Shown: positions 4,768-36,987 of the stretch, in pieces
How positions within the stretch are numbered: the first letter of the stretch is position 1
Layout: each line of letters starts with the position of its first letter
Virus record (IMG/VR): IMGVR_UViG_3300031974_003920
Location: 1 to 37,137 of that record
Source of the DNA: a virus
Length of the DNA stretch: 37,137 nt
Direction: 5' to 3' (one strand)
Made by a program: the position numbers and the translations under genes
Notes under the pieces: model-generated
What the model was told of the DNA's origin: nothing
Seen by the model: only the letters and a program-made list of their open reading frames with translations
Database searches by the model: none

Positions 4768-5517
4768 ATGTCTAGAAAAAAACGTAAAGAAAACTGTAAC
4801 AAGTATAGAAAACACAACCAAGGAGAAACTTATTTGAGAGTAATACAAGGAGGCGCCTTAGAGCGTAACAGAAACAAACAGGTCAACATAGTCCCCAGAA
4901 ATTTCCACCAAGATGACCTACTTGGATATTTGGAAAATCATAACATCAACATAGTTTTTGCTATTGGGCCAGCAGGTACAGGCAAAACACTAATCAGCAC
5001 ATTAGCAGGTATTAAAGCACTCAAAGGAGGTGATATAGATAAATTTGTTGTTACTCGACCTGCAGTAAGTGTTGACGAACAACACGGCTTCTTGCCAGGA
5101 ACATTACAGGAAAAAATGGCTCCCTGGACCAGACCAATATTTGACATTTTTGAGGAGTACTATTCTCCAGATCAAATTGAGTATATGTTAAATGATAACA
5201 AAGTAGAGATTGCACCACTTGCATACATGCGTGGTAGAACATTTAAAAACAGTTTTATCATTGCAGATGAAATGCAAAATGCCACAGACAGTCAAATGAA
5301 GATGCTGTTAACCAGAATAGGAGACAACAGTAAAATAGTGGTAACAGGTGACCTTGCTCAGCATGATCGTGGATTTGAAAGTAACGGACTTAAGATGTTT
5401 ATAGACAGATTTGCACGTTCAGGTTCTGAAAAAATCAAAGTAGTACAGTTTGATAACAAGGACATTGAACGACATCCTGTGGTAGATGAAGTACTTAAAA
5501 TTTACGGCGAGGCATAG
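4768..5517 (+). CDS. phoH: PhoH-like P-loop ATPase
   Basis: A 249-residue PhoH-family ATPase. The Walker A motif GPAGTGKT is at residues 67-74, a Walker B-like segment FIIADEMQN is near residues 165-173, and VVTGD follows, all in family order. PhoH proteins are RNA-associated ATPases or helicases. The gene is common in marine phages, and its role in infection is not settled. The basic N-terminal 20 residues (KKRK, KYRKH) are poor in family motifs but have a GGGAG site before ATG 4768, so I keep this start. It is the only plus-strand gene in the left half and converges on the radical SAM gene, overlapping its 3' end by 16 bp. Confidence 0.93.
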   Translation: MSRKKRKENCNKYRKHNQGETYLRVIQGGALERNRNKQVNIVPRNFHQDDLLGYLENHNINIVFAIGPAGTGKTLISTLAGIKALKGGDIDKFVVTRPAVSVDEQHGFLPGTLQEKMAPWTRPIFDIFEEYYSPDQIEYMLNDNKVEIAPLAYMRGRTFKNSFIIADEMQNATDSQMKMLLTRIGDNSKIVVTGDLAQHDRGFESNGLKMFIDRFARSGSEKIKVVQFDNKDIERHPVVDEVLKIYGEA

Positions 5518-6944
5518 TTAAGCAAATAGACTGACTTGCGATCAATATAGTCGCTGACAAATTTATCGGCGGCTATTTGATCTGGTGTCACTCTATGACT
5601 GATCCATTCCCATGGATCTAAAATACTATTACCTTCCGCAACCCATGCCATGCCCATCTGTTGAGCAATTATTTGAGCAGTTTTTCGGTTTGCAAGTTCA
5701 TGGGTCCAATCCATGCTGGTGCTTGACCCCATTTTCTTTTTAACAGTGATTCCATATTTGTCTGGGTGTAATGCAAAGTCACTGTAGTTATGCTCGTTGC
5801 CAGGAATGTCCCATAAGCCTAATGCTTGCGGAATAACACTGTCTAATAAATTTAAATCACTTATTTCTTTGACTGTTTCCTGGGCATGCTCTAACGGTTC
5901 TTTTGGTATACCCACTATGTAACCACTACAAGTATACCAGTGTGGGAAATTATCCCTTATATAAGACATAAACTCGTATGCTTTTTCCTTGCGGATTCCT
6001 TTTCGTATAAGTTTGCTCGCTTCACGATGTAATGTTTCTATTCCAAAATAATGACCATGAAAACCACATTCGTCTAATTGTTTTACTTGCTCTGGGTGTG
6101 CCATTAACAAATCGAATCTCTGATAACCCACAATTAAAGGCAAATAATCCAGTTGTTTTACAGCACTATGCAGAGTATCTATTTTAGATTGATCTTCGTT
6201 AAAGGTATCGTCAGCACAAAAGAAGTTTGTGACACCATATTTTTTAGCATCTGTAAAAAATTCAGTTAATTGTTCTGCAGTGGCATCTGTTGTGTGTTTC
6301 GCATTACGAAATTCAAAATTACAAAACGTACAGTTAAACTTGCACCCTAATCTGGTTTCAAATCCTAATATATCATTATTGCTTAAACAATAATCGTCAT
6401 ACAGTTTAGGTACTATGGGTTCCTCAACTATTTCTGGACTGTTTGTGTAGTATAGCTCTACGCCTCTTTTTATTCTTAAATGTCCTTTAGGTATAGGCTT
6501 GTTGTCTAACACATGCTCCAGTAGATGCAAACTACGTCCTTGGAATACTGCGTCTGGTATAGGTGTATGCTCATCAAAATTATAGTCTAATAAGTCTACA
6601 GGCCCGCCCAGATAAAGTGTTACATCCAGATGCTGTTTAAAAGAATTAATTAGTTTGTTGATGTTGTTGTCACCTTTGATAACATCATTATCAAAAAGTG
6701 TACTTACACAAATACAAAGTTTTTTGATTTGATTTTTTTGTACCCACACGCTTAATGCAGTGTGTAGTTTGCTATAGTCCCAATTTTCAGTGTAGTTGAT
6801 TAATGTTGCTGGAATATTTCTGGACACAAAAGTATGATGCAGTGCAAAAGGTGCAATGCGGCGAATAATGTTACGCCTCCATTTTCCTGAAGGCGAGTTA
6901 TCAGGAGCCTCTAATATGAGGGCTCCATCGAATTTTTGTGTCAT
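5502..6944 (-). CDS. Radical SAM protein with B12-binding-like N-terminus (copy 1)
   Basis: A 480-residue protein. Residues about 1-150 look like a Rossmann-type cobalamin-binding-like domain without the base-off DxHxxG motif. The radical SAM core begins at LGCKFNCTFCNFEFRN, with cluster Cys 201, 205 and 208, and continues with CADDTFNE and YFGIETLHREASKLIRKG, which are typical of the B12/Elp3-like radical SAM layout. It should bind a [4Fe-4S] cluster and cleave S-adenosylmethionine; the substrate is unknown. It shares these motifs with the protein at 7260-8711, so the two are paralogues. Its start overlaps the stop of the 102-residue gene as ATGA. Confidence 0.87.
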   Translation of the reverse strand: MTQKFDGALILEAPDNSPSGKWRRNIIRRIAPFALHHTFVSRNIPATLINYTENWDYSKLHTALSVWVQKNQIKKLCICVSTLFDNDVIKGDNNINKLINSFKQHLDVTLYLGGPVDLLDYNFDEHTPIPDAVFQGRSLHLLEHVLDNKPIPKGHLRIKRGVELYYTNSPEIVEEPIVPKLYDDYCLSNNDILGFETRLGCKFNCTFCNFEFRNAKHTTDATAEQLTEFFTDAKKYGVTNFFCADDTFNEDQSKIDTLHSAVKQLDYLPLIVGYQRFDLLMAHPEQVKQLDECGFHGHYFGIETLHREASKLIRKGIRKEKAYEFMSYIRDNFPHWYTCSGYIVGIPKEPLEHAQETVKEISDLNLLDSVIPQALGLWDIPGNEHNYSDFALHPDKYGITVKKKMGSSTSMDWTHELANRKTAQIIAQQMGMAWVAEGNSILDPWEWISHRVTPDQIAADKFVSDYIDRKSVYLLNYASP

Positions 6945-7259: not shown

Positions 7260-8711
7260 CTACTTTGTATTTATCATCCACTCGCTTTTGGATTTAATAT
7301 ATCTTCGTACTATTTTATCTCGTCCTGTGTTAAACAAATTAAGATGCTGATTATAACTTGCCCAAGGTAAATCAGGTAACACTGCTGTCATGCCAAATAT
7401 TTCATGTGCTGTAAATTTAGATTCCAAATTCTCTGCCAAATACTGGTCTATTTCAAATGCTAACTTATCTGATTCTGCTGTGGTAGACCAGTCATTTTTC
7501 CAATGTTTAGAGGAATATCCGATCTCTTTCCATTCCTTGTCAGTACCTATTATCTCATATCCAAATTTTTCTGGGTTTTTATCTATGTCACTTTCTACAT
7601 CTGGATTTTCTAGATTAGTATACAATCTTAAACTGTTACATCCTGCACTGGTTAATGCCTGTTTTTCAACTATCTCTCTGCTGTTTTTCCAGATATCCTG
7701 TTCACTGTCACCTGTTAATCCTATCAGGAAATTACCGTAAGTGAATGCCTGAGGATATTCTTTCTTCAGAGTGAGTAAACCTTCCAGCATCTTTTCTGGT
7801 CTGCCACCTTTTCTGATAACTTTGGTGACATTGGGATTCAGGCTTTCAATACCAAAGAACATACTTTTTATTTTGGCACGTTGCAGTAAATCAATCTGAT
7901 GAGGTTTTGCCGCCATTACGTCAGCACGAACAAATGCCATGAACTCAGGTTCAAAATCCAGTTGATCAATTATACTACACAACAATTCTAATTTGTCATC
8001 AATTTCGTTTATGGTATCGTCTGCTAATACAAATTTAGTGATGCCCTGTTCCTGATATGCTGAGCTAAGGGTGTTGTACAGTATCTCAGGATCAATCAGT
8101 ACAGGATTTTTGTTATTACGGAAATCATATCCACAAAAACTGCAATTAAACTTACAGCCTAATGCTAATTCCACAGTATGTGTTTCCTGTGGGGACCAGA
8201 AGTCAGTGTGGGTTAACTTAGGGCTAACAGGCTTTTCTAATATCTGTCCGTGTGGATTTTTGTATGTTAATGGATTTCTGCTAAACACATATTTTTCTAA
8301 ATCATTGCCTTGCAACCATTCAGTGAATATATTTCCACTTCTGCCAATAAAAGCAAAGTCTACCCAATCACTTTCTCCAGTGGGTACACGGTAACCGCCC
8401 AGTATAACTTTAAGATATGGTTTTTGTTTCTTTAGATGGGTTACTAATTGTTTGAATTGTTGAGTACTACTACCATCTATACTGCCACTTAGTGCTATCC
8501 AGATTTCAGGATCATCAGCAAACCAACTCAGTATACTTTGTTCAAGCAGAGCTTCAGGCCACTCAGTCCAATAGTCTATGTTAGTTGCATCTATACCATG
8601 AGCTCTGGCTATCTCTACAATGTGTAAAGCACCAGAACTTCTACTATTGTTTTTAAGTAGGCCTGCTCTTGTGGGTTTTGCACCCAGATCTGATAGCAGT
8701 AAAAATTTCAT
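7260..8711 (-). CDS. Radical SAM protein with B12-binding-like N-terminus (copy 2)
   Basis: A 483-residue protein. ATG 8711 overlaps the clamp loader stop as TGATG, which fixes the start; an upstream in-frame TTG is less likely. The N-terminal 150 residues resemble a cobalamin-binding Rossmann fold (LSGSIDGSS near residue 75, VILGGYRVP near 103). The radical SAM cluster motif is GCKFNCSFCGYDFRN with Cys 186, 190 and 193. ADDTINE and FFGIESLNPNVTKVIRKGGR match the first copy. I infer a duplicated enzyme pair acting on related substrates. Neither has a recognisable tRNA-modification or glycyl-radical-activase signature, so no substrate is proposed. Confidence 0.87.
   Translation of the reverse strand: MKFLLLSDLGAKPTRAGLLKNNSRSSGALHIVEIARAHGIDATNIDYWTEWPEALLEQSILSWFADDPEIWIALSGSIDGSSTQQFKQLVTHLKKQKPYLKVILGGYRVPTGESDWVDFAFIGRSGNIFTEWLQGNDLEKYVFSRNPLTYKNPHGQILEKPVSPKLTHTDFWSPQETHTVELALGCKFNCSFCGYDFRNNKNPVLIDPEILYNTLSSAYQEQGITKFVLADDTINEIDDKLELLCSIIDQLDFEPEFMAFVRADVMAAKPHQIDLLQRAKIKSMFFGIESLNPNVTKVIRKGGRPEKMLEGLLTLKKEYPQAFTYGNFLIGLTGDSEQDIWKNSREIVEKQALTSAGCNSLRLYTNLENPDVESDIDKNPEKFGYEIIGTDKEWKEIGYSSKHWKNDWSTTAESDKLAFEIDQYLAENLESKFTAHEIFGMTAVLPDLPWASYNQHLNLFNTGRDKIVRRYIKSKSEWMINTK
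7268..7275 (-). promoter_or_regulatory. Possible late promoter box GATAAATA
   Basis: GATAAATA on the minus strand, 18 nt before the ATG at 7249, with AGGG between. It lies within the last codons of the upstream radical SAM gene (WMINTK), so coding constraint could produce it by chance. Confidence 0.35.
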
Positions 8712-9634
8712 CAAACACTATTTAACTGAAGTTCAATAAGTGTTGCAGATAAGTTGATTTCAGGATCAGCACACAGACTGCTTTTAGCCATACCGTCTCT
8801 GATAATTACCACAGCCTTGTCCTGTGCTAAACTGTCTTTGCCCCAAAGTTCCAGATTACGATACATAAACTTGTATACATCTTCATATTCTTCAGGACGA
8901 GCTTGGCTTACAATCAGCTCACGTGCTGGCTTATATTGTCCTGCTTTAAACATTTCTATTGCTTCAAGCATCCAATCTGAACTGTTGCCGTCACCTGTCT
9001 GAGGACGCTGTAAGACGCTGTCTACCACGTTTTGCTGAACTAGGTTAATACTTTTACGCAAATCAGGATAAGTTGCTTGTACATAAGTGTCTAGCGTTTC
9101 TAAGTCTACTTCTACACCTTCACCAATACAAATTGTTGCAATCCTGGCGGTAAATTCTTTGATGTCCAGTTTTTCGATATGAAACCCTTGACATCTGCTG
9201 TGCAATGCTGGAATAATACGTTGTGGATAGTTACAAGTTAATATAAACCTACAACTGGTGTGATACATTTCCATTACACCACGCAGTGCCGCCTGACCAT
9301 TTGGAGTGATATAGTCTGCTTCATCCAGCAATACATATTTTATATCACCAAAAGGCATAGTACTGGCAAAATTAGTAATCTTATTTCTAATTGTGTCTAC
9401 GTTATTTTCATTACTGGCATTTATTTCCAGAATATCTAAGTCGTTCACGTCCAGTTCATTTAGCAATACTTTTGCTAGTGTTGTTTTACCCGTACCTGGC
9501 GCACCACTAAACAGCAAGTGCGGCATTGCACCACTTGCAATCCATCCAGTTACCTGTTCTTTTTGATTGTCGTCTCTAAACACATAGTCCTGTGCTGTGC
9601 GAGGGCGATATTTTTCTGTCCACAATTCTTTCAT
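8711..9634 (-). CDS. Sliding clamp loader ATPase subunit (T4 gp44 type)
   Basis: A 307-residue AAA+ protein close in length to T4 gp44 (319). It opens with WTEKYRP, the RFC-box-like start of archaeal, eukaryotic and phage clamp loaders. Walker A GAPGTGKT is at 44-51, the Walker B DEAD at 104-107 and the sensor/arginine-finger SRC at 146-148. With a small subunit (gp62-like, not in this window) it would load the gp45-type clamp for the replicative polymerase. ATG 9634 has an AGGA site, and a perfect sigma70 promoter sits about 45 nt upstream, so it is probably an early gene. Confidence 0.94.
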   Translation of the reverse strand: MKELWTEKYRPRTAQDYVFRDDNQKEQVTGWIASGAMPHLLFSGAPGTGKTTLAKVLLNELDVNDLDILEINASNENNVDTIRNKITNFASTMPFGDIKYVLLDEADYITPNGQAALRGVMEMYHTSCRFILTCNYPQRIIPALHSRCQGFHIEKLDIKEFTARIATICIGEGVEVDLETLDTYVQATYPDLRKSINLVQQNVVDSVLQRPQTGDGNSSDWMLEAIEMFKAGQYKPARELIVSQARPEEYEDVYKFMYRNLELWGKDSLAQDKAVVIIRDGMAKSSLCADPEINLSATLIELQLNSV

Positions 9635-15813: not shown

Positions 15814-16651
15814 AGTGTGTATCCAGTGTGTTGCCTGTAATGTGTAAGTATTGCTTTCTAGTTCTAAAAATTACGTCTAATCCAGGTGCGGCGTCAGGTA
15901 TAAAGTTTTCTATAGTATAACTTTCCTTGTTTCCAAAAGCAAGACAGTTATACCCTGTAATTTTGTGATTTAGCGAACCAAAATTTAATTCCTGATCATC
16001 TGTATTGAATTTTTTTAAGTCTATACCTGCTACAATCATTGCTCCTGTTGTATGAAATACATCATCAGTATCAGCAATAACTGTTCTTATTTTTTTATCG
16101 TCTTGTGTCTTACTGCACAGAATAGTAAACCTATTATTAGAACTAACCAGTGTATCATATTGTTCAGTACTTCTGGTAAACTTAAAACCAATACTCTGAT
16201 AAAAGTTCATCATTTTGGGATCGCAACAGTTATACTTTATGCCTGTGATTATTTTAAGACCAGGATTACTGTAAGATTTATTGTTTACTGTTTCATAGTT
16301 AATAAGTGAACTTGCATCAAGAGTAAAAGTAGATGTATCAATAAACAATGATCTAAGACCTGCATTGTTCATTTTGACCCACAAGTCTGTTTCAGGATCA
16401 TGCTGGCAACCTAACTGCTGAATTTCTTGTGGTGTTGCTAAAAATCCTAATCCTGTGAGTTCTGGTTGATCAATGGAGAATGTTTCCCTGATCATTAAAA
16501 TGGAATTGTTTTGTGTCCATACTGTGACATAGCCAGACCTATGTTTGGCTCTGTTTACAAAACCCAGTTGTGACAGTTTCCCAAACACTGATTCATATGA
16601 AGTATTATCAGGGTTAAAACTGTATTCTAAAAATCCAAAATCTGCTTTCAT
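15791..16651 (-). CDS. VOC-fold (glyoxalase/dioxygenase-like) protein
   Basis: A 286-residue protein. The segment CDPKMMNFYQSIGFKFTRST followed by a strand ending ILCSK matches the beta-alpha-beta-beta-beta module of the vicinal oxygen chelate superfamily. The N-terminal half shows a second similar module (YESVFGKLSQLGFVNRAKHR with VTVWTQ strands), as in paired-module enzymes such as 4-hydroxyphenylpyruvate dioxygenase. Metal ligands cannot be assigned with certainty by eye. ATG 16651 forms ATGA with the IscA stop, so I prefer it to the longer frame at 16678. Substrate unknown. Confidence 0.6.
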   Translation of the reverse strand: MKADFGFLEYSFNPDNTSYESVFGKLSQLGFVNRAKHRSGYVTVWTQNNSILMIRETFSIDQPELTGLGFLATPQEIQQLGCQHDPETDLWVKMNNAGLRSLFIDTSTFTLDASSLINYETVNNKSYSNPGLKIITGIKYNCCDPKMMNFYQSIGFKFTRSTEQYDTLVSSNNRFTILCSKTQDDKKIRTVIADTDDVFHTTGAMIVAGIDLKKFNTDDQELNFGSLNHKITGYNCLAFGNKESYTIENFIPDAAPGLDVIFRTRKQYLHITGNTLDTHYEQLQNA

Positions 16652-17013
16652 ATAGTAAATGTTACCGATTCTCCACAACCACAGGCACTGTCTGCTAATG
16701 GTGCTTTAATCTCAATATGTCTTCCTGCAACACCTGTAACCAAATCTATGGTACTACCAACTAGATATTGCTTGCTCATGCTGTCTAACCAAAAAGTCCA
16801 ACCAGCAAACTCCTTGCTAAAATCAGTTAAATTGATATCTGAAATATCTTCTACTAATTTCCAATCATACATAAAACCAGCACACCCACCTCCTGTTAAA
16901 CTCAGTTTAACACCCAGTGCACCAGACTCTGACGTTTGAATTTTAAAGTGCTCTTGTGCACCTTCAGTCAAAGTGACTACATCTTTATTAGGATCAAAAG
17001 TTTGTATTTCCAT
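16648..17013 (-). CDS. iscA: A-type iron-sulfur carrier (IscA/HesB family)
   Basis: A 121-residue A-type carrier that receives nascent Fe-S clusters and passes them to apo-proteins. The three family Cys are in place: C44 in GGGCAGFMYDW, and C111 and C113 in the C-terminal ACGCGESVTF. The glycine-rich turn before C44 and the strand after it follow the family. Length (about 107-120 in bacteria) is normal, so the protein should be functional. It sits beside the 2OG-Fe(II) oxygenase, ClpP and SufE-like genes. With SufE and NfuA elsewhere in the window, it suggests the phage supports Fe-S biogenesis during infection. Confidence 0.93.
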   Translation of the reverse strand: MEIQTFDPNKDVVTLTEGAQEHFKIQTSESGALGVKLSLTGGGCAGFMYDWKLVEDISDINLTDFSKEFAGWTFWLDSMSKQYLVGSTIDLVTGVAGRHIEIKAPLADSACGCGESVTFTI

Positions 17014-17515: not shown

Positions 17516-18102
17516 TATCTGTTCTCTATAATTTCGTCCACCAAACCAAAGTCTAATGCTTCTTGTGATGACATAAAGTTATCACGATCCATTGCTAATT
17601 CAAACTCCTCAAAAGTTTTACCTTTTGTATTATGCTTAACATAGATATCAGTTAGTTCTTTCTTGATACGCACAATCTCCTTGGCACGGATTTCAATATC
17701 ACTTGCTTGACCTTGTGCACCACCCAGTGGCTGATGAATCATGTGTCTGGCATTGGGTAACATAAAACGTTTACCAGCAGTGCCAGCATTTGCTAGGAAC
17801 GAACCCATACTTGCGGCTTGCCCCATAACAATGGTGCTCACATCAGGTTTGATGTACTGCATGGTGTCGTACATTGCCATACCGGCAGTAACAACACCGC
17901 CAGGCGAGTTGATATAAAAGTTAATATCAGAGTCAGGATCTTCTGCTTCTAAAAATAACAATTGAGCACAAATACTGTTTGATACAGCATCATTTACTTC
18001 GCCATTCAAAAATATGATACGTTCTTTTAATAACCTGCTGTAGATATCATAACTACGCTCTCCAGCACTTGTCTTTTCAATTACATATGGTACAAAATTC
18101 AC
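17515..18102 (-). CDS. clpP: ClpP protease subunit
   Basis: A 195-residue serine peptidase that forms the barrel degraded by partner AAA+ unfoldases. The catalytic set is present: Ser98 in [10 protein letters not shown], His123 in RHMIHQP and an Asp in MDRDNFMS (D174 by alignment). The N-terminal hydrophobic loop region and the [14 protein letters not shown]-like start ([20 protein letters not shown]) match the family. The start is GTG 18102 with GGAG upstream. No ClpX or ClpA is seen in the window, so it would pair with the host unfoldase. ClpS at 36.7 kb points to the same host machine. It has its own sigma70 promoter. Confidence 0.95.
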
Positions 18103-18131: not shown

Positions 18132-18160
18132 AGTATAACAGATATCTTAGATAATATCAA
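18132..18160 (-). promoter_or_regulatory. Sigma70 promoter for the clpP operon
   Basis: TTGATA (18160..18155), 17-nt spacer, TATACT (18137..18132). The expected start is about 25 nt before the GTG of clpP. The -35 overlaps the stop codon of the SufE-like gene. Confidence 0.75.
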
Positions 18161-18558
18161 CTGTTTTCTGTAACTATTTTTTGTATACGGTTAACCAAGT
18201 GTTGTAAACTTTTTTGTTTATCGTTATCTAATATTCTGGTGATCTTTTGAAAGTTTTTATACTTTATTTGTTTAATTTGATGTTCGTTAAGATTGTTATA
18301 AGTGTCTACTAAAATTTTACATAAACTTTTAATCTGAGCATTTTCACTATCAGCTCTAAATATCCAACTACTTCCAGATTTTGAACCATCACACCATACT
18401 AAACAGTGTGGGCAACATCCACGAACAAAATTTTCTTTTACTCTTAATGTTTGAGAATTTTTTACACTATGTGAATTTCCTATAGAAAGAAACCACTCTT
18501 TGGCAGTGTTGTGATCTGTAAACTGGTCAACTTGCTGTATGTAAGTATCTAAGGACAT
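18157..18558 (-). CDS. SufE-like sulfur-transfer protein
   Basis: A 133-residue protein resembling SufE, which takes persulfide sulfur from the SufS desulfurase and hands it to the Fe-S scaffold. The match covers the AKEWFLSIGN start, the active-site region FVRGCCPHCLVW (SufE catalytic Cys, C48 or C49 here, plus C52), WIFRADSENAQIKSLCKILV and the C-terminal helix LQHLVNRIQKI. Extra Cys at 49, 52 and 56 are unusual for SufE. The ATG is 5 nt downstream of a perfect TATAAATA late box, with no ribosome site, so the mRNA is probably leaderless. It would use host SufS because no desulfurase is in this window. Confidence 0.8.
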   Translation of the reverse strand: MSLDTYIQQVDQFTDHNTAKEWFLSIGNSHSVKNSQTLRVKENFVRGCCPHCLVWCDGSKSGSSWIFRADSENAQIKSLCKILVDTYNNLNEHQIKQIKYKNFQKITRILDNDKQKSLQHLVNRIQKIVTENS

Positions 18559-21057: not shown

Positions 21058-21063
21058 ATGCAA

Positions 21064-21102: not shown

Positions 21103-22236
21103 TTATTCGCCTACTGTACTGCCTTCGTAACTGGTATTGTACTGTTTTGCATTGTTAACTTGAATAAATGTAGTTCGCTTACTGAGCTCTTTTAAACTCC
21201 TTGCACCAACATAAGTGCAAGTACTACGCAACCCACCCATAATGTCTCTGAGCACAGGATCCACCTGGCCTTTATAAGGTACTCGTACAACTCTGCCTTC
21301 ACTTGCTCTGTATTCTTTAACACCATCTCCGTGTTTCTCCTGTGCCGCTGATGAGCTCATGCCGTAAAATTCAATGAACTCTTTCTTTTTAATTTTGTGC
21401 TTTTGAAATTCTAGGTGATTACCCACCTCATAATCTAATTCTGGTTCTTTGTAAAATTTAGTAATTACTTCTCCGCCACCTTCGTCACAACCTGCAAGCA
21501 TTCCTCCCAGCATGACAAAGTCAGCACCTGCACCAAATGCTTTTGCTACATCTCCAGGACATGTACAACCGCCATCAGCAATGATGTGTCCGCCAAGACC
21601 GTGAGCGGCATCGGCACATTCAATGACTGCCGAGAGTTGAGGATATCCAACTCCAGTCTTAATGCGAGTAGTACAAACACTACCAGGCCCAATACCAACT
21701 TTAACGATATCTGCTCCATTAAGAATCAACTCCTCTGTGATGTCTGGTGTTACCACGTTGCCAGCAATAATGGTAATACGTGGGTTTTCTTCTCTAAATT
21801 GTTTTACAAAATCTAAAAATCTTTCGCTATAACCGTTAGCAACATCAATACAAACGTACTGAATGCTTCTGCTTAATTTGAGAGTTTTATCAATTCTTTC
21901 TTTATCAACATCTGTGATGCCTGTACTAACTGCTACAGTGTCTTTAAGATCACTTTTGTATGGTGACGTGTTCCACCAGTCCCAAATGTCTGCAGGATCA
22001 TAACTTTTACTAAGGCAAGTAAACATTCCTTTTTTAGCCATCTCAATGGACATATCAAAAGTACCCACACCATCCATGTTAGCCGCAATTATAGGAACTC
22101 CTGTGTAAGTTAATCCGCTGTTTCTAAAAGTATAAGTTCTTTTGAGATCAACTTCTTTACGACTTCCCATTGTACTTCTTTTAGGCCTAAAAAGTACATC
22201 TGAATAGTCTAATTTTACATCACGTTCAATTCTCAC
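21103..22236 (-). CDS. guaC: GMP reductase
   Basis: A 377-residue TIM-barrel enzyme that reduces GMP to IMP with NADPH. The family marks are [13 protein letters not shown] at the start, [11 protein letters not shown], the active-site loop [20 protein letters not shown] (Cys188), [20 protein letters not shown] and [18 protein letters not shown], then [18 protein letters not shown]. These fit GuaC better than IMP dehydrogenase, which would carry a CBS insertion and an RYxGMGS flap. It is about 30 residues longer than bacterial GuaC. The start is GTG, overlapping the upstream stop. It would shift guanine nucleotides toward adenine nucleotides, fitting an AT-rich genome. Confidence 0.93.
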
Positions 22237-22495
22237 CTGATAACTTCCTCATTACTACATTTTCTACAGTTTCGTATTCTATACGGTTAAATGCGTCAGG
22301 GGGAAACTGTGGAGGAGTCCACTGAACAATCCTCTTCCGCACATAAACATATTTAAGCCACACCTTATCGCCACTGACTGTTTTAGTGGGCCACCAAATA
22401 AATTTTTTCTTCCAGGGTGTATACTGAACATCTGTTGGCTGTGGTTTCAAATGTGGATACCTTGTATATGCAGGATGCCCGTACATGGACTTCAC
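22226..22495 (-). CDS. Small basic Trp-rich protein, unknown
   Basis: An 89-residue protein starting (V/M)[20 protein letters not shown]. It is basic and aromatic ([31 protein letters not shown]) without signal peptide or known motif. The GTG start at 22495 forms TAGTG with the nucleotidyltransferase stop, and an AAGGAAGG stretch lies upstream; ATG at 22486 is an alternative. The stop overlaps the GMP reductase start. No function proposed. Confidence 0.72.
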
Positions 22496-22908
22496 TACAA
22501 CTTACCTTCCTTTCTTAATTGTTCACGAATTTGTGTGGCACTTATTTTATGAATATCTTCGCCCAAGTCATGTTGTGTGAATGTATAACCTACACCTCTG
22601 CCATAACTGATATCCACAATGTTTGGAACCATCATAATGGTGTATTCCTGGTTATATTCAAATCCTTCTTTGGACAATGCTTCTACAATGTTACCAACAA
22701 CTTCGTCAAAATCAAATGGATTATCGTCCTGAGTTTTAGTTCGGCCTCCGCCTGCATCTTTCCCTATGATTCCGCCTACGTCGCGAATCATAATACATAC
22801 TTGACCTGTCTCTAACAGTGCCTTCTTAAACAACGCGGTATGTCCATCATGCCACGGTTGCCAACGACCCAACATTTGTGCTGTGGGTTTCTTCCAATCA
22901 AAATCCAT
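22495..22908 (-). CDS. Cytidylyltransferase-fold nucleotidyltransferase (NMNAT/adenylyltransferase-like)
   Basis: A 137-residue HxGH-superfamily enzyme. The nucleotide-binding site is GRWQPWHDGHTALF (H20 and H23 as HxxH-type), and the late phosphate-binding motif is ISATQIREQ near residue 125, as in NMN adenylyltransferases and phosphopantetheine adenylyltransferases. It would transfer a nucleotidyl group to a phosphate-containing substrate. With NadE two genes downstream, an NAD role (NMN or NaMN adenylylation) is plausible but not proven; the middle insert GGIIGKDAGGGRTKTQ is not typical of NadD. Confidence 0.75.
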   Translation of the reverse strand: MDFDWKKPTAQMLGRWQPWHDGHTALFKKALLETGQVCIMIRDVGGIIGKDAGGGRTKTQDDNPFDFDEVVGNIVEALSKEGFEYNQEYTIMMVPNIVDISYGRGVGYTFTQHDLGEDIHKISATQIREQLRKEGKL

Positions 22909-24211: not shown

Positions 24212-24928
24212 TTAATCAGCGAAAGCTCTTTCCAACATAAAGTCTCCGCGTTCTCCTAAGTTTCCTTCCTGCCATCCCAAATCCTCAAATTCAGTTCGGC
24301 ATTGTTTGTTTAACTCGGGCGACCCGCATACCATTACACTGTCTCGACCCAAGGTTAAACCTCCAGGCAGATAATCACTTATGTGTGACCAAAATCTACC
24401 ATTACGATTATACTGTTCTTCAGTGACCGTGTCAACATATTTCAGGTTACAATGTTGTGAAAGTTCTTCTAACTCTGCTAGATACGCTAATTCTCTAACA
24501 TATCTCACAGTGTGAAATAAGTAAACATTTTTAAACTTTTCGTATGTTTCAAAGTCTCTTGCTATACTCATGAAAGGAGCGATGCCTGTTCCTGTGGCAA
24601 GCATCACTAAATTTTCTGTATCATTAAGGTAATCTATTACAAGGGTGCCTGTACATTTAGGCTTGATTAGGATTTCATCACCAGGTTGTATTTTTTGTAG
24701 ATGTGATGTAAGAGGTCCATCTGGCACTTTAATGCTGAGAAATTCTAGGTGCTCATCATAACAAGTGCTTACAATACTATACGCTCTAAAGATTGATTTG
24801 GGTTCCAGTTGTAAACCAATCATGGCAAACTCGCCATTCTTAAACCTGAAACCTCTGTCTCTGGTTGTTTTAAAACTGAATAACTTTTCGCTGTGGTGTG
24901 TTACCTCTAACACCTGCTCTGTGTACAC
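24212..24928 (-). CDS. fpr: Ferredoxin-NADP reductase (Fpr type)
   Basis: A 238-residue flavoenzyme moving electrons between NADPH and a ferredoxin or flavodoxin. The FAD motif RAYS is at 48-51 (RxYS family signature), SIKVPDGPLTSHL continues the FAD domain, and the NADP domain has LATGTGIAPFMSIARDFETY (111-130), VYLFHTVR and MVCGSPELN. The length fits bacterial subclass Fpr (about 248-258), and the C-terminus ends RAFAD after LGERGDFMLE. The start is GTG, forming TAGTG with the MazG-like stop. A phage-encoded Fpr with a Bfd-like protein in the same window is notable: this pair drives iron release from bacterioferritin in Pseudomonas. Confidence 0.92.
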   Translation of the reverse strand: MYTEQVLEVTHHSEKLFSFKTTRDRGFRFKNGEFAMIGLQLEPKSIFRAYSIVSTCYDEHLEFLSIKVPDGPLTSHLQKIQPGDEILIKPKCTGTLVIDYLNDTENLVMLATGTGIAPFMSIARDFETYEKFKNVYLFHTVRYVRELAYLAELEELSQHCNLKYVDTVTEEQYNRNGRFWSHISDYLPGGLTLGRDSVMVCGSPELNKQCRTEFEDLGWQEGNLGERGDFMLERAFAD

Positions 24929-25230
24929 TAAGCATCACCTTCCTTGACAAAGACACCATCTATCATTTTGCCTTTGCGGTCTTTGATATCGTCCCACGCC
25001 TTTTCTAAACACTGTTCAATGGTTAGATTGTTACGTTCTGCAATATTGATTAACACAACAATCATATCGCCGATATCGTCTGCAATGTCTTTGCCTTTGC
25101 AGATGTTGTCTGAAAGTTCGCCTGCTTCTTGAATAAGTTTAGCAAACTGGCTTTTGTCATCACTGCCGTCAATTAAGTTTCTGTCGTGATGCCATTTTGC
25201 AATGTTGTCAATCAGTGTGTTTACGTCCAC
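24928..25230 (-). CDS. mazG: MazG-like nucleotide pyrophosphohydrolase
   Basis: A 100-residue single-domain MazG protein that hydrolyses nucleoside triphosphates, in marine phages possibly (p)ppGpp or dGTP/dCTP. The metal-binding helices show EAGELSDN (EExxE variant) and DDIGDMIVVLINIAERN. The start is GTG 25230, overlapping the GGCT gene end. One MazG domain is normal for phage versions (E. coli MazG has two). The stop overlaps the FNR start, so the two are translationally linked. Confidence 0.85.
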   Translation of the reverse strand: MDVNTLIDNIAKWHHDRNLIDGSDDKSQFAKLIQEAGELSDNICKGKDIADDIGDMIVVLINIAERNNLTIEQCLEKAWDDIKDRKGKMIDGVFVKEGDA

Positions 25231-25598
25231 TGCAACACCTCTCCTTTTTTTCCTTTAATCTGATGAATTTGACTGTCGTCCATCATTTCAATGTCTGGGA
25301 TATAATACATCCACGCATTACCGGCACTAGTCTCTACTTCTACTCTGTTGTAAAAAGTAGGATAACCTTCTATTCTGTCTAACATGTCAAAAGTTTCTTT
25401 GTCTACTTCCCAAACCTCTCCAGCAATTTTGTTATCGCCGTTAACACCTACTGCAGGAAATGACCCTAAATCATAAAGACCAAAAGTGGCATTTTTTGTA
25501 GTGGCGTCAGCAACAAAGTCCGCACCCTGAAACATAGTCAGACCACGTATTGAGTTACCCTTTTTGAGAGTACCGTATACAAAAACTTTATTTGTCAT
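25221..25598 (-). CDS. Gamma-glutamylcyclotransferase-like protein
   Basis: A 125-residue AIG2/GGCT-fold protein. The substrate-binding loop is VFVYGTLKKG near the N-terminus (YGTL), and the catalytic Glu (E77) lies in MLDRIEGYPTFYNR, both in family positions. GGCT enzymes convert gamma-glutamyl peptides to 5-oxoproline and take part in glutathione turnover. Here it could act on glutathione or a gamma-glutamylamine. It is followed by MazG and FNR in one overlapped run. Confidence 0.87.
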   Translation of the reverse strand: MTNKVFVYGTLKKGNSIRGLTMFQGADFVADATTKNATFGLYDLGSFPAVGVNGDNKIAGEVWEVDKETFDMLDRIEGYPTFYNRVEVETSAGNAWMYYIPDIEMMDDSQIHQIKGKKGEVLQWT

Positions 25599-25806
25599 TT
25601 AATTTTTCTTCTAGAGCTTTGATACGCTGATTCATCATTGTCAGCAGTCTGCTAGAATCAGCATCCATGGGAACAGCCTGACTGCTAATAGCCATACTTT
25701 CTAATTCGTCAATGCGAGAATTAAGTTCAGCAATAATTGTGTTCTTCTCGTTTACAAGTTCTAACAATTCTGCCTTTGTCATTTGAGTTGTACTTTTCTT
25801 TGCCAT
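25588..25806 (-). CDS. Small coiled-coil protein
   Basis: A 72-residue helical protein, MAKKSTTQMTKAELLELVNE, with two coiled-coil stretches (IIAELNSRIDELESM and LTMMNQRIKALEEKLND). ATG 25806 is preferred to the longer frame, which begins at a TTG within the upstream gene. The ribosome site is weak. The stop overlaps the GGCT start by 11 bp. No function recognised. Confidence 0.7.
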   Translation of the reverse strand: MAKKSTTQMTKAELLELVNEKNTIIAELNSRIDELESMAISSQAVPMDADSSRLLTMMNQRIKALEEKLNDK

Positions 25807-25817
25807 GCAATTACTTA

Positions 25818-26051
25818 TTAAACGTGCTGACTGCCGTCCCAAAATCCTGATACACGAAACTCACCGTCACTGAGTACCTCATCAACATCACCCACATCAG
25901 CCCACAACCAACGTTTGTCGTGAATCTGAATTTGCATGTAACCGTCAGTATCGATTACCTGGAACCACTTATCTTCCTGGCGAATCCAATCGCCTACAAA
26001 AATAATGAATGTTTGGCTAGGGTTATCGGTTAAAATAGATTGCCTTAACAT
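25818..26051 (-). CDS. Small hypothetical protein
   Basis: A 77-residue protein, MLRQSILTDNPSQTFIIFVG, with many Trp and Asp (WIRQEDKWFQVIDTDG, KRWLWADVGDVDEV). It looks like a single beta-rich domain such as a small barrel. Its ATG forms TAATG with the upstream 61-residue gene. No family recognised; part of the small-gene cassette behind the promoter at 27221. Confidence 0.68.
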   Translation of the reverse strand: MLRQSILTDNPSQTFIIFVGDWIRQEDKWFQVIDTDGYMQIQIHDKRWLWADVGDVDEVLSDGEFRVSGFWDGSQHV

Positions 26052-26236
26052 TACTCTGCCCCCATGATGATGCCAATACGCTTCTGCTTATTAACATTAA
26101 CAGTTACTGAGTCGCCAATGCGTCGACGAGGTTCGCCCACAACGTCCAAGTAACGCAATGACTTGACGACATCACGGTTATAATACTTGAAACGCACCGC
26201 ATAGGTGTTCCACTCATACTCAGGTAGTTTAAACAT
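26051..26236 (-). CDS. Small basic hypothetical protein
   Basis: A 61-residue protein MFKLPEYEWNTYAVRFKYYN, rich in Arg/Lys and Val (GEPRRRIGDSVTVNVNKQKR). The compact beta-rich pattern resembles small phage nucleic-acid or protein-binding modules, but no homologue is recalled. TAATG junctions at both ends support translation as part of the cassette. Confidence 0.65.
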   Translation of the reverse strand: MFKLPEYEWNTYAVRFKYYNRDVVKSLRYLDVVGEPRRRIGDSVTVNVNKQKRIGIIMGAE

Positions 26237-26448
26237 TACGCCGCCTCCATTACACGGGTTACACTTTCGTGGTCAACAATAACCACATCGCCTGCAGGAC
26301 GACTGATAGGACCGTCCTTGATGCTGTTGAACAGCTCAACATGGTGACTGATACCGCCACCATACTTGACACGACTTAGGGTTACTTTACCAGCAACCGG
26401 AATGTCCAGGTAAACTGCCTCAACAGCCAAACCTTCCAAATTCCACAT
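26236..26448 (-). CDS. Small hypothetical protein
   Basis: A 70-residue protein MWNLEGLAVEAVYLDIPVAG, beta-rich with GKVTLSRVKYGGGISHHVEL and VVIVDHESVTRVMEA. No motif. ATG 26448 forms TAATG with the preceding gene. Local base composition is richer in G and C than neighbouring genes, as for the 61-residue gene. Confidence 0.65.
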   Translation of the reverse strand: MWNLEGLAVEAVYLDIPVAGKVTLSRVKYGGGISHHVELFNSIKDGPISRPAGDVVIVDHESVTRVMEAA

Positions 26449-26771
26449 TAGTCTAACCTCGACTCTTCATAAAGTTTAACACCAGGCAAGTAACGCTCTA
26501 CAGTATCAACATAAGCCTGCGTACCAGCCATCTTAGCACTCACGTCCTGAGTGTTATGACCTGAAGGGTTCCACAACTTGTAACCACCGTCATAACTTTT
26601 CTTAAAGCCTTGGGCGATAAAACTTTTGCCCAACTTAGTGTTACCTTTTACAAAAGTGGTTACCCAAGCAAAGCCACAGTTGAACGGATGTTCACCGTTC
26701 TTCTTGATATAATCGTTCGTTGCAATCTGTGCATTGCGAACTGCCAATTGATGAATTTCTGGTGTCAACAT
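26448..26771 (-). CDS. Hypothetical protein of the small-gene cassette
   Basis: A 107-residue protein starting MLTPEIHQLAVRNAQIATND with a pattern of conserved-looking aromatic residues (GFAWVTTFVKGNTKLGKSF, GYKLWNPSGHNTQDV). No enzymatic motif. It is 2 nt after the stop of the 137-residue gene. I recall similar small proteins in T4-like cyanophages without function. Confidence 0.7.
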   Translation of the reverse strand: MLTPEIHQLAVRNAQIATNDYIKKNGEHPFNCGFAWVTTFVKGNTKLGKSFIAQGFKKSYDGGYKLWNPSGHNTQDVSAKMAGTQAYVDTVERYLPGVKLYEESRLD

Positions 26772-26773
26772 GA

Positions 26774-27187
26774 TTAAGCCTCCAACTTAGCAAGACGCTC
26801 GTCACGATAATTGAGAGCACCTTCGCCTAAATAAATGTTACCATCGTCTGCTCTAAACAGAGTAGCCAATGATGCCTCTTCGTCCTTCTGCTTCTGCAGT
26901 AAGGAAAATTCTGCTTGTTCAAAAGTGATAGCACCAATCTGCACAAAGTCCAACAGCATGTCTGCAAACGGAACTTCACCGTTTGACTTCCATACAGTTA
27001 AACCATCTACCTGAGCAGTATCTTGGAACTTCTCCTCAATGCTCTTTGAAAAATCGTTTTGCTTTTGGCTGGTGAAAAGAACATCACCTGTGAAAGTCCT
27101 GTTTTCAGGATTGCTACTAGCAAGACCAAAACGCTCTTTACGAACTGTTTCACCTGCTATCTTTACTGTATCGTTCAAAATATGCAT
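26774..27187 (-). CDS. Hypothetical protein heading the small-gene cassette
   Basis: A 137-residue protein MHILNDTVKIAGETVRKERF, mixed alpha/beta with a helical acidic centre (FEQAEFSLLQKQKDEEASL). CGGAG lies about 9 nt before ATG 27187, and the sigma70 promoter at 27221-27248 is directly upstream. It leads a run of five to seven overlapped small genes down to about 25.6 kb. No function recognised. Confidence 0.72.
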   Translation of the reverse strand: MHILNDTVKIAGETVRKERFGLASSNPENRTFTGDVLFTSQKQNDFSKSIEEKFQDTAQVDGLTVWKSNGEVPFADMLLDFVQIGAITFEQAEFSLLQKQKDEEASLATLFRADDGNIYLGEGALNYRDERLAKLEA

Positions 27188-27220
27188 ATTTTCTACTCCG
27201 TTTTTTTAACCTACAAGTAT

Positions 27221-27248
27221 ATGATAGCAAAGAATCAGCAGAAGTCAA
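27221..27248 (-). promoter_or_regulatory. Sigma70 promoter of the small-gene cassette
   Basis: TTGACT (27248..27243), 16-nt spacer, extended TGC-TATCAT (27226..27221). It leads to ATG 27187 with a leader of about 30 nt and a CGGAG site. Confidence 0.82.
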
Positions 27249-27276
27249 CCTTTTTGAGCAACAAAAAGGCGTTGCT
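27249..27276 (-). promoter_or_regulatory. Two mutually exclusive hairpins after nfuA
   Basis: On the minus strand AGCAAC (27276..27271) can pair with GTTGCT (27262..27257), or CCTTTTTG (27269..27262) can pair with CAAAAAGG (27256..27249). The two structures share bases and cannot coexist. They follow the nfuA stop and end at the -35 of the next promoter. No U-run follows, so classical termination is unlikely. Confidence 0.4.
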
Positions 27277-27286
27277 AAGTGCTTGA

Positions 27287-27865
27287 TTAATAATAAGAAT
27301 TTGTGCGATCAGTGTGATCTGTAACGTCATTTACCCCAGAAAGCTCAGGAATCTGCTTGAGTAGCTCTTGTTCTACCCCATATTTGAGTGTCAGATCCAC
27401 TTGTGAACAGCCCTGACAGCCTCCTCCAAACTTGAGTATAGCAACTTTATCCTCAGTAATTTCTACTAAATCTACCTCTCCACCGTGTGGAGCAACCATG
27501 GGGTAAATATCGTTCCAGATTACATATGTTACTTTTTCTTCAAGAGTGGCGTTTTCTGACAGTTTAGGCAATTTACTATTTGGTGCTTTGATTGTGAGAT
27601 TGCCTCCCATAACTTCAGCGTCATAGTTTATCAAAGCATCTTCTAAAAATTGAACGGTCTTATGATCCAAATAGAACGTAACCTCACCGTGTTGTTCTAC
27701 AATATCATTTTCGTCAAAGGTATCTTCTTTACAATAAGTCAACATTGTTTCTGCTTTAGGTGTTCCTGCCCTATTAACAAAAAGTTTGACGCCTTTGGCA
27801 GTCTCTTGTTTCTTTAATAAGTTTAGTAAAAACTCCTGTGCTGATTCTGTTACTGTTATACTCAT
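27287..27865 (-). CDS. nfuA: NfuA iron-sulfur carrier
   Basis: A 192-residue full-length NfuA (E. coli 191). The N-terminal A-type-like domain (VTESAQEFLLNLL, VNRAGTPKAETMLTYC) is followed by the C-terminal Nfu domain with PHGGEVDLVEITEDKVAILK and the cluster Cys C150 and C153 in FGGGCQGCSQVDLTL. Even the terminal SYY is shared with E. coli. NfuA delivers [4Fe-4S] clusters under iron limitation or oxidative stress and rebuilds radical SAM enzymes such as lipoyl synthase. It overlaps the dCMP deaminase stop as ATGA. The close match to host-type NfuA suggests acquisition from a bacterium. Confidence 0.97.
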   Translation of the reverse strand: MSITVTESAQEFLLNLLKKQETAKGVKLFVNRAGTPKAETMLTYCKEDTFDENDIVEQHGEVTFYLDHKTVQFLEDALINYDAEVMGGNLTIKAPNSKLPKLSENATLEEKVTYVIWNDIYPMVAPHGGEVDLVEITEDKVAILKFGGGCQGCSQVDLTLKYGVEQELLKQIPELSGVNDVTDHTDRTNSYY

Positions 27866-28314
27866 ACCTTTATTACCTCAATTCCACTGTCGATTAAAAA
27901 TTGTTTTCCTGTTCCTTTTGCGGCATCATAATCATATTTATAGTACACTGTTACTATGCCACTCTGATGAATTAGTTTAGCACATTCAATACAAGGAGTA
28001 TGAGTACAAAATAATTCAGAACCTCTACTGCTTTCTGAGCTTTGTGCTACTTTTGCAATAGCATTTGTTTCTGCATGTAGTACTTCTGGCTTGGTCTTGT
28101 ACATAGAAGCATCTGTGGGTTTACCGTCATTGGTAAATGTGCCTATGTATGTTTCACATTCATTATCCCAACCACTGGGCATACCATTGTAGCCAATTGA
28201 AATAATTCGTTTGTCTTTGACAATTATCGCACCAACTTTTGCTCTTGTGGCTGTGCTTAATTGTGCAAAACGTTCAGCAACATCCATGAATGCATTAACG
28301 AATTTTTCTTTCAT
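27862..28314 (-). CDS. dCMP deaminase
   Basis: A 150-residue zinc deaminase producing dUMP for thymidylate synthesis. Zinc-site motifs are HAETNAIAKVA (H80, proton-shuttling E82) and PCIECAKLI (C108, C111). YNGMPSGWDNECE and the N-terminal RAKVGAIIVKDK are as in T4 gpcd and ComEB-type proteins. It is shorter than T4 dCMP deaminase (193), nearer bacterial ones. Starts at ATG 28314 with AAGGTG upstream. It fits an AT-rich phage that needs dTMP. Confidence 0.93.
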   Translation of the reverse strand: MKEKFVNAFMDVAERFAQLSTATRAKVGAIIVKDKRIISIGYNGMPSGWDNECETYIGTFTNDGKPTDASMYKTKPEVLHAETNAIAKVAQSSESSRGSELFCTHTPCIECAKLIHQSGIVTVYYKYDYDAAKGTGKQFLIDSGIEVIKV

Positions 28315-28344
28315 GTTCCCAACACCTTTTGCAATGACATCCTT

Positions 28345-28530
28345 TTACATATTTCCATGTAGGCTTCCAATTTTTCCAGACAAATCTTTGATCTTTATCT
28401 CTGTACCTGGATATTTGTTTTGTTTCAACCATTCTAAACATCTGCCGCAATTAGTACCAACTTGACTTATAAGTTCTGGATTATCTTTTAACATGCTTTC
28501 AGTTATAGCATTACAGACACATATATACAT
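28345..28530 (-). CDS. bfd: Bacterioferritin-associated ferredoxin (Bfd)-like [2Fe-2S] protein
   Basis: A 61-residue BFD-like [2Fe-2S] protein, MYICVCNAITESMLKDNPEL, with the four ligand Cys in the BFD pattern: C4 and C6 as CxC, C28 and C31 as CxxC in GTNCGRCLEW. Bfd passes electrons from ferredoxin-NADP reductase into bacterioferritin to free stored iron. The spacing between the Cys pairs is 21 residues, about 10 shorter than in E. coli and Pseudomonas Bfd, so one helix is truncated. TAATG overlap with the DUF2061 gene upstream. FNR is 3.5 kb away on the same strand. Confidence 0.88.
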   Translation of the reverse strand: MYICVCNAITESMLKDNPELISQVGTNCGRCLEWLKQNKYPGTEIKIKDLSGKIGSLHGNM

Positions 28531-28748
28531 TATTTTTTATGTTCCACTCCAAACTTACTGTAATTATACCATGCTCTTTCGTGCCAATAATATAAAAACA
28601 TTTTGGTTACTACTTCTATACTGGCTATACCTGCGGCCCAATCTATTTGACCTGTAATTAGCCATGCAATTAAAAACGTATCAGTTGTTGCCAATACTCG
28701 CCACGTTAGCGTTTTTGCTAGGTGTCGCTTTCTTGATATCTGCGTCAT
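28530..28748 (-). CDS. DUF2061-like membrane protein
   Basis: A 72-residue inner-membrane protein with the DUF2061 pattern: basic KRHLAKTLTWRVLATTDTFL, a membrane helix with AWLITGQIDWAAGIASIEVV, and the end KMFLYYWHERAW. AGGAG stands before ATG 28748, so the start is firm even though the gene overlaps the upstream gene by 68 bp in another frame. Family function is unknown. Confidence 0.85.
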   Translation of the reverse strand: MTQISRKRHLAKTLTWRVLATTDTFLIAWLITGQIDWAAGIASIEVVTKMFLYYWHERAWYNYSKFGVEHKK

Positions 28749-31231: not shown

Positions 31232-34200
31232 GTGGCAGAACATAAAGACTATGGCCTAGCGGGAGCCGGACGTAGCCTACAACTAGGTAAGCAAGGTCCT
31301 AAACTTGTTGGCAACGCAGATAACGATACATTTCTTTTTACCACTGAAGATGGTAGTACCCTTACACGAGCAAGTGGTGCTAATGCAATTAATTCATCAG
31401 ATTTAGTAACAAAGGCACAATTAGATGCACTTGCAGGCGGTGCAGGTACAGACGGTTTTAATTTACAATTAGGTAATATCAGCAGTCAGGGAGACGCAAG
31501 TTGGACTGACGGTGCTGTACAGACTATTACCAATACTACTTCAGTATCGCAAGCAATTGACGACCTCAACGAAGCAATGGAAAATGTGCGTAACAACACT
31601 TTTGTTAAGAGTGTTGACTTCACTGTGGACAACAGTGTAGGTGGTGCGCCATTAGTTAGTACTCTCACTATATCCACTGTGGGTAATCCAGACAGATATA
31701 CCATTGTTTGGGGCGATGGTACAACCACAACTGCTACTGCAGATAGTACTCCAACCCATACATATTCAAACAATGCATTATCACCATTTGACGTAACTGT
31801 AACAGCATTTAATAGTTCAGGAAGTGGTACAGGTTCAACTGCAAGTACAGAAAAAGTAGACTTTATTACATTGTATACTGCTAACCCAGTCGCTGACTTT
31901 GATTTTTATGCGGCGGCAAGTGGTGGATCACCAGTTACACTTGTTGATGATGGTACAGCATTGTATTTTGAGAATACTACTACCAACATTGGCGGTGCTG
32001 ACGCAACTTACACCATAGAGTGGGGCGACGGTTCTGCAAACAGTAATATTAGCCAAAACGATTTCCCAGGCGGTGAAGCAGGTTCAAGACTTGCTCATAC
32101 ATTTACTAGCTCGACTGAAACTGATCAGGAGTACACAGTTAAATTAACACTGGATACTCATAGTACAGCAGACCCTGCTGTAGTACCAAATAACGTGAGC
32201 GCCACTGTTAAAGTTTACGATACGCATACTCCAGAAGTTGCATTAGACACAACCAATGTGATTAATGAAGAAACATCAAGTGGTGGTGTTGTAACATTTA
32301 CTAACAATACTGAAAACACTATTGGTAGTTACGCAGACTTTGGAATACAATACAGATACGTTTGGGGCGACGGCACAACAACTACGGTAAATGTTGGTGC
32401 TGGAGGTAACGGTGATACAGGCGGAACAATAACGCACACTTATGCACTAAGTGGTGCTCAACAAGCGGCAGGAACAGCAGTTGACTTTACTGGTAATTTA
32501 GAAGTTATATCAAGCCACACAGGTTCACCTTTCAAAACTTCAGACTTTACTGTACACTTGGAACCAGACGTTAGAGCAAGTATTACTGGTTCAAGTACCA
32601 CAAGCAGTCTCAGAGAAAGTGATCATGGTGTAACAGATCTTTATAATGGCGTTGATTTAAGTGGTACTAACAGAGCAGAAGTTACTATAGACAATACCAC
32701 ACAAAACGGTGATTCATATGTTTATAGTTGGGGCGATAGCAGTTTAGATACAGCAGTTTTAGAATCGGGAGCAGGCGCAGGTAGTGTTGCTGGCGGTAAT
32801 ATTACTCACAGTTACTTAGGTGAAGCAAATACCAGTTATACATTAACAATGACTGCAAGTGGTACACCTGATATTACAGCTCAAACAGATACTGATACTG
32901 TAACATTTACATTGAGAGCCGTACCAAGTGCTCCAGCAGGTGTTAGCAGTAAAACTTTACATCTAGCAACAAATGGAAATCATACAGCAAGTTCTAAATT
33001 AGCATCAGGTGCAATAGACAATGCAGGTAGTGGATTAAGTGCAGGTACAGCCTTAAGCACTGATACAGCAAGAAGATACGATACTACTACAAGTATCAGC
33101 ACAGATTTAATCAGTGACGCCTATAACAGTTATAACGGAAATGTTACAGCATACATAGATGGTGTTGCTGACGGAACAAAACAATTTACATCTGCTACAG
33201 GTGAAACAGGAACATTTACATCGCTGGTAATTACCAGTGAAGGTGATGCACATAACGAAATAGGTTCAGCACAATATCCTGAGAACTTCTATCAAGTGTT
33301 CACAGGCAGAATTACAAAAGATATTAGCAGTTTAAATTATGGTGTGCATACAATGTACATAGGTCATGACAGCACAGGCAATACAAACAATGTGCATGTT
33401 GTGTATGACAATGTAAACACTGTGCCCACATTAGATATAAGTGGTGCAAGTTTACAAGAAGAAACAAATGGTTCACTTAGATATGTAAGTGGTATTCCTT
33501 ATTACAACTCAGGTAACCCAACAGTAAAATTAGTGGGTGCCACAGTCACAAATCTAGTTGGACAAGCATACAAAGATGACAGTGCTATTTTTAATATTCA
33601 GAGTGGTACTAACACAGAAGGTTCAGGTTCAGCAGTACAGGTTGAAGGCAGAAGTTATTCACAAATAGATGGTGCTGTATCAATGTTAAGTGGTGGTATT
33701 CCTGTTGCTAACGTTGGTGTTGGTGGTGCTTATACATTAGGTAATGTAAGTATAGACATTTCAACAAGCAGTGTTAATACTGTGGAACCAATTAAGTTTA
33801 CTATAGAAAATTTAATGGGTACAAGTACTGCAACTTCAGATACCTCACAACAAATTCAGGTTTGGAGAATAACTCCAACATTTGATGAGGGTGCTATACC
33901 AGTAAGCGACAGTTTAGGTGCTGGTTTTACCGACGACGGAGTTAGGGTTACTGGTTTCGGTGCGTCTGCAGATACTCCGGCATTTGATAATAGTGTTAAT
34001 AACTATACCGCAAATGCTTGGAGCGGCGCCGAAACCATCTCTGGCACAGCAGAAGCAGTGAATAGATTCAATGTGCTGACTCATTATGATACAGATTTAA
34101 GTTCAGGTTACTTGCCAGTAGGCCCAGACTTAGCAACTGGCAGAAGTGGTGCTCAGTACTTTACTTTTGCATTCCGCAGAACCACAATGAGTAACTTTGA

Positions 34201-36971: not shown

Positions 36972-36987
36972 CTCTTTTACCAATAGT

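Follow-up and report, generated by a model that had tools for sequence, protein, structure and literature searches.

A short-spacer Bfd-like ferredoxin and a ferredoxin-NADP reductase among iron-sulfur assembly genes of a marine jumbo phage

We analyzed a 37,137-base virus record (IMGVR_UViG_3300031974_003920, positions 1 to 37,137; hereafter, the window) for a candidate phage electron chain, formed by a 61-amino-acid (a.a.) Bfd-like putative [2Fe-2S] ferredoxin, called here mini-Bfd (28345..28530, minus strand), and Fpr, a 238-a.a. ferredoxin-NADP reductase (24212..24928, minus strand). Mini-Bfd belongs to a viral family in which the spacer between the two cysteine motifs is shorter than in any cellular Bfd examined, and this short-spacer form appears to be new. 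The two genes recur together in other viral contigs but are not obligate partners, and iron-sulfur (Fe-S) assembly is a steadier context of mini-Bfd than Fpr is. Our tentatively favored interpretation, held with less than even confidence, is that a short chain from NADPH through Fpr to mini-Bfd would serve iron or Fe-S supply during infection, via bacterioferritin or a phage ferritin-like protein.

The window is probably a piece of a larger genome, that of a T4-like jumbo marine phage, and nearly all of its genes between 31170 and 455 lie on the minus strand. It encodes a gp44-type clamp loader that shares 57% identity with the one in PA5oct, a Pseudomonas jumbo phage of about 287 kb, and in relatives of PA5oct. 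The original prediction had described a Bfd-like protein with cysteines at positions 4, 6, 28 and 31, an NfuA and an Fpr-type reductase on one strand, with about 3.4 kb between the first and the last. The open reading frames (ORFs) were verified, the cysteines stand at exactly these positions, and we counted 3416 bases between the reductase and Bfd-like genes, with NfuA (27287..27865, minus strand) inside the gap.

A viral family of short Bfd-like proteins

Taken singly, the window mini-Bfd (C4-x-C6-x21-C28-x2-C31) is a weak Bfd match, scoring 21.2 bits against Fer2_BFD (cut-off 26) and E 0.006 against Pseudomonas aeruginosa Bfd. A single-sequence search followed by an alignment search gathered a family of 47 viral loci, in which M1, C4, C6, I9, C28, G29 and C31 are invariant, Y2, N7, T10, E11 and G25 are nearly so, and the C terminus is variable. 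A chance ORF is ruled out by this invariant cysteine pattern across the 47 loci. When a profile of 30 members was compared with the PDB, Bfd structures were the only matches below E 0.01. Pfam Fer2_BFD matched 12 of these 30 members at E <= 0.01, and PHROGs gave no family match for any of them.

The spacer from CxC to CxxC is 21 residues in 38 of the 47 viral loci, the window included, 17 residues in eight and 29 in one. For comparison, we searched 399 genomes of one bacterial phylum, 60 of which gave a Bfd match, and counted the spacer in 29 of the 30 best matches; it was 31-32 residues in all 29. The window protein is thus 10 residues shorter in this region, and the alignment places the deletion between the two cysteine loops. 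Occurrence of the mini form in cells found no support among these best matches, where the long spacer occurred throughout. In a scan of species genomes, the single mini form (L122) lay on a 6.3 kb contig in a Bacteroidetes metagenome-assembled genome, and this contig looks like a misbinned virus.

Mini-Bfd resembles the Bfd proteins of P. aeruginosa and Escherichia coli in the CxC...CGxC order, the MYxCxC start, the G-x-x-CGxC motif and the M1/Y2/hydrophobic-5 residues. It differs from them in its spacer (21 or 17 versus 31-32 residues), its score below the Pfam cut-off, its viral origin and the lack of a bfr neighbor in the window. The family would also tell how small a Bfd fold can become.

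P. aeruginosa Bfd binds bacterioferritin via M1, Y2 and L5 (PMC12261321); L5 is conserved or replaced by I/V, and loops L1 and L3 stabilize the bacterioferritin complex (PMC12363616). The window mini-Bfd has M1, Y2 and V5, and the viral family keeps Y2 in 44 of 47 members and I/V at position 5 in all 47. These retained residues fit docking on bacterioferritin.

The start of mini-Bfd is overlapped by one base by the stop of a gene for a DUF2061 small membrane protein (28530-28748), which precedes mini-Bfd also in L003 and L059.

The reductase, NfuA and the recurrence of the gene pair

The Fpr-type assignment of the reductase, also part of the original prediction, stands: Pfam NAD_binding_1 (54.2 bits) and FAD_binding_6 (29.9 bits) both exceed their cut-offs, and the nearest solved relatives are Pseudomonas/Azotobacter-type enzymes at E 1e-55 to 1e-60 (best 7.7e-60; P. 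aeruginosa 2qdx, E 1.3e-58). The match to 2qdx and 1a8p is full length and includes the FAD and NADPH motifs and the C-terminal ERAF; unlike them, the window protein is about 15-20 residues shorter, chiefly in the NADP-binding half of the alignment, and sits in a conserved viral set. That set comprises 43 Fpr loci on viral contigs, 59-75% identical to the window protein. Among 30 distinct viral sequences, 97 positions are at least 95% conserved, the FAD and NADPH motifs among them (R48-A49-Y50-S51, G113-T114-G115-x-A117-P118-F119 and E233-R234-A235-F236). Matches among isolated phages are 28-46% identical, and some of those records resemble bacterial contigs. The window Fpr can probably charge mini-Bfd.

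The 192-a.a. NfuA has an A-type-carrier-like domain and an Nfu domain with CxxC, the make-up of an Fe-S cluster carrier. It aligns with TIGR03341 over 190 of 190 positions at 248.8 bits, under the cut-off of 269.35, and by its sequence is a diverged NfuA-like protein.

Presence of both genes in related phage contigs had been proposed as a check, and its outcome was divided. The pair recurs in G018, G010 and G011, but close relatives hold one gene without the other. The contigs are incomplete, and gene absences on them fall short of proof. The gene order mini-Bfd/dCMP deaminase/NfuA is shared by L001-L003 and L059. Three contigs (L012, L017 and L025) carry Fpr and NfuA and lack mini-Bfd, and most Fpr contigs searched are likewise without it. 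Conversely, among 43 further mini-Bfd contigs, Fpr was found in one, G018 (the contig of L059). In two Fpr contigs, G010 and G011, a mini-Bfd with a 17-residue spacer lies on the opposite strand at a distance of 12.5 kb; the G011 match is weak (E 0.02), with a clear cysteine pattern. A dedicated Bfd-Fpr pair as a general rule is ruled out by the relatives with one gene only.

A long-spacer Bfd-like ORF accompanies Fpr in G008, between cupin and dCMP deaminase genes. Such a long-spacer ORF between these genes, at L045:2709, has I at position 2 and escaped the similarity searches.

Iron stores or Fe-S assembly as the possible acceptor

In much of the ocean iron is limiting, and the present genes bear on how a phage inside a cell covers its demand for it. 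From gene identity, the cysteines and contact residues kept in the viral family, the Fpr motifs and the Fe-S context, we infer that mini-Bfd would bind a cluster, be reduced by Fpr, dock on bacterioferritin and deliver iron. In such a chain, NADPH would reduce the phage Fpr, a flavoenzyme, and Fpr, or a host enzyme in relatives without Fpr, would reduce mini-Bfd as a minimal [2Fe-2S] ferredoxin. Mini-Bfd would dock by its M1/Y2/hydrophobic-5 face on host bacterioferritin or, in relatives that encode a phage ferritin-like protein, might dock there instead, and docking would lead to Fe2+ release. IscU would receive this iron, together with sulfur from SufS/SufE in genomes that have them, and IscA/ErpA and NfuA would then relay it to Fe-S enzymes of phage and host, among them radical S-adenosylmethionine (SAM) enzymes.

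The Fe-S context was seen in the window and its relatives. In the window, all on the minus strand, are an ErpA/IscA-like A-type carrier (16648..17013; Fe-S_biosyn 38 bits, ErpA 71.7 bits, TIGR00049 63.4 bits, exceeding the cut-off of 58.8), a SufE-like sulfur transfer protein (18157..18558; PF02657 39.4 bits, cut-off 27) and two radical SAM enzymes as possible consumers, the first of clusters and electrons (5502..6944; PF04055 55.5 bits; and 7260..8714, closest in NCBIfam to the PhpK radical SAM family at 62.3 bits, below the cut-off). The 82 kb contig G018 adds a SufS-family cysteine desulfurase, IscU and a ferritin-like protein. A 62.6 kb contig, G005, encodes SufS, IscU and a ferritin-like protein (57-74% identity), together with NfuA, SufE, IscA and Fpr, and G008 encodes SufS, SufE, IscA and IscU. 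G018 and G005 hold SufS between Prx and ClpS, which adjoin each other in the window; the desulfurase missing from this spot may lie elsewhere in the genome. IscU is absent from the 37 kb window fragment, and IscU, the Bfd-like protein and Nfu are all present in G018.

A second possible explanation, which we hold to be somewhat doubtful, is that mini-Bfd, reduced by Fpr, acts as an electron or cluster donor to Fe-S assembly, in the manner of the Bfd-like domain of NifU or the Isc ferredoxin, working on IscU and then IscA/NfuA without bacterioferritin. NifU combines IscU, a Bfd-like domain and Nfu; the viral set has the Nfu domain and the Bfd-like part, to which relatives add IscU, and differs from NifU in that these are separate genes, with a Bfd-type N terminus and an NfuA that has its own carrier-like domain. 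Gene proximity also speaks for this donor role. In L097/L098, IscU and mini-Bfd share one base, at the stop of the former and the start of the latter, the gap is 456-476 bp in L070 and L090 and about 1.3 kb in L087-L089, all on the same strand, and NfuA is two genes from mini-Bfd in the window and L001-L003. IscU occurs on 13 of 50 mini-Bfd-set contigs versus two of 41 Fpr-only contigs (Fisher p 0.009, kinship ignored), and one of the latter two, G008, later proved to carry the long-spacer Bfd-like ORF. Relatedness among the loci weakens these statistics: when loci are joined through shared genes (single linkage), only six groups are left, two of them with a near IscU. Moreover, IscU was not seen on most mini-Bfd contigs, many of which are fragments, and coupling to IscU is equally expected if mini-Bfd supplies iron to it. 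The Y2 of mini-Bfd is typical of Bfd, and we know of no NifU-type Bfd-like domain that has it.

Bacterioferritin as the acceptor is placed slightly ahead of the IscU/NfuA machinery, with low confidence. The former fits because the docking residues are retained and the ancestry is that of Bfd, and the latter because of the gene neighborhood and the NifU precedent. The two are compatible, since the iron released would feed IscU. Iron mining via host bacterioferritin is possible as one of several acceptor routes.

Several observations weigh against a chain acting on iron stores. The AlphaFold model of mini-Bfd, whose conserved part keeps one strand and three short helices, is of modest confidence (pLDDT 72, pTM 0.40), and its top Foldseek match, Bfd in the bacterioferritin complex 4e6k, falls short of significance (E 1.5). 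That mini-Bfd binds a cluster and is redox active is a prediction from sequence, and a protein that lacks 10 residues might be unable to dock or to hold the cluster. The retention of L1 and L3 is not proof of docking, because both loops also carry cluster ligands. Fpr is absent from the whole contigs of the closest relatives with the shared gene order (L001-L003), one of which is 97 kb, and the two genes are usually apart; when together, they are separated by about 3.4 to 12.5 kb. Ferritin-family genes occur on two of the 50 mini-Bfd-set contigs, G018 and G054; the G018 protein is nearer to the Sigma-B-operon ferritin (2qqy) than to heme bacterioferritin, and the G054 gene is a Dps by motif, read by eye. 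No mini-Bfd match was found among isolated phages, and no host was assigned for this reason. A phage-encoded heme bacterioferritin as the partner was considered and is unsupported, given the affinities of these two genes.

The proposal that the phage Bfd and Fpr mine host iron stores thus stands in part. A Bfd-type ferredoxin with bacterioferritin-docking residues, a Pseudomonas-type reductase and a ferritin-like protein in the two-gene relative G018 agree with it, but each gene occurs without the other in most contigs searched, and what recurs beside mini-Bfd is Fe-S assembly genes (IscU, NfuA) rather than ferritin genes.

It is unlikely that Fpr is a general phage reductase with mini-Bfd as one of several carriers, the electrons going chiefly to radical SAM enzymes, class Ia ribonucleotide reductase, fatty acid desaturase and the like. 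The two radical SAM genes of the window are in line with such a role, as are a radical SAM gene, QueE-like by sequence, that neighbors Fpr in L005-L010 and in most of them follows it immediately, the class Ia NrdA/NrdB, glutaredoxin, fatty acid desaturase and alternative oxidase of G018, and the many phages with Fpr and without mini-Bfd. This explanation accounts for Fpr better than for mini-Bfd, which does not track such enzymes; in the loci read, NrdA and NrdB are jointly near mini-Bfd solely in L091/L092. Least probable, and by our estimate very much so, is that mini-Bfd carries no electrons and is a structural zinc/iron binder, or a decoy that sits on bacterioferritin in place of Bfd and prevents the iron from leaving, paired with Fpr by chance in a gene-rich phage: the loss of 10-14 residues, the modest fold confidence and the sporadic pairing would suit it, and the strictly kept CxC/CGxC and flanking Bfd residues and the Fe-S gene neighborhood argue against it.

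Known viral systems and neighboring genes

Viral IscU, A-type carriers, SufE and NifU have already been published, in reports on marine T4-like phages (PMC5332604, PMC9038755, PMC8940887). These phages resemble the present set in IscU, an A-type carrier, SufE or NifU, radical SAM enzymes, Grx and ClpP, and differ in that Bfd, Fpr and ferritin are not mentioned in the searched passages of these reports. PMC8940887 describes sufE without sufS, whereas G018 and G005 have a SufS-family gene. A bacterioferritin is encoded by a Bathyarchaeia virus (PMC10904782), which shares a ferritin-family gene with our set; the portion of that report that was read mentions neither Bfd nor Fpr. The one paper found that links Bfd with phage deals with Pseudoalteromonas under infection, in which transcripts and proteins of bfr and bfd were examined (PMC12282109). 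The original prediction knew of no phage system with Bfd and Fpr, and in the literature searched, which included few subscription papers, we likewise found no report of a viral Bfd or of Bfd with Fpr.

With the present genes, the viral Fe-S repertoire known so far (IscU, A-type carrier, SufE) grows by a desulfurase, an electron supply and a ferritin-like protein. Mini-Bfd and Fpr inside a set of Fe-S assembly genes suggest, short of proof, that such viruses run their own iron and Fe-S supply during infection. A bolder version, which we regard as rather unlikely, is that marine giant phages carry a near-complete line from iron to Fe-S clusters (a ferritin-like store, a reductase, a minimal Bfd that opens bacterioferritin, SufS, SufE, IscU, IscA and NfuA), with mini-Bfd as a virus-evolved, smallest Bfd member that gains control of the host's stored iron. 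The question of phage iron supply can be put directly to the test with small proteins, given a minimal Bfd confined to viruses, a viral reductase and the Fe-S genes close to them.

Other genes were noted in the window and its relatives. Beside the Fe-S genes, the window has purine and NAD genes, namely a GMP reductase over its cut-off (21103-22236), a weak NMN adenylyltransferase match (22495-22908) and a NadE-like ORF (20116-21063). By sequence, it also appears to encode a ClpS-like adaptor (36675-37010) and a ClpP protease (17515-18102) in one phage, and a ClpX-like ORF is found in G018 (31899-33176). G018 (L108-L112) further has MetK-like and ketoacyl synthase-like ORFs. Finally, in L005-L010, where Fpr is near the QueE-like gene, FolE-like and MazG genes lie close by, and these genes may form a viral deazaguanine pathway with its own reductase.

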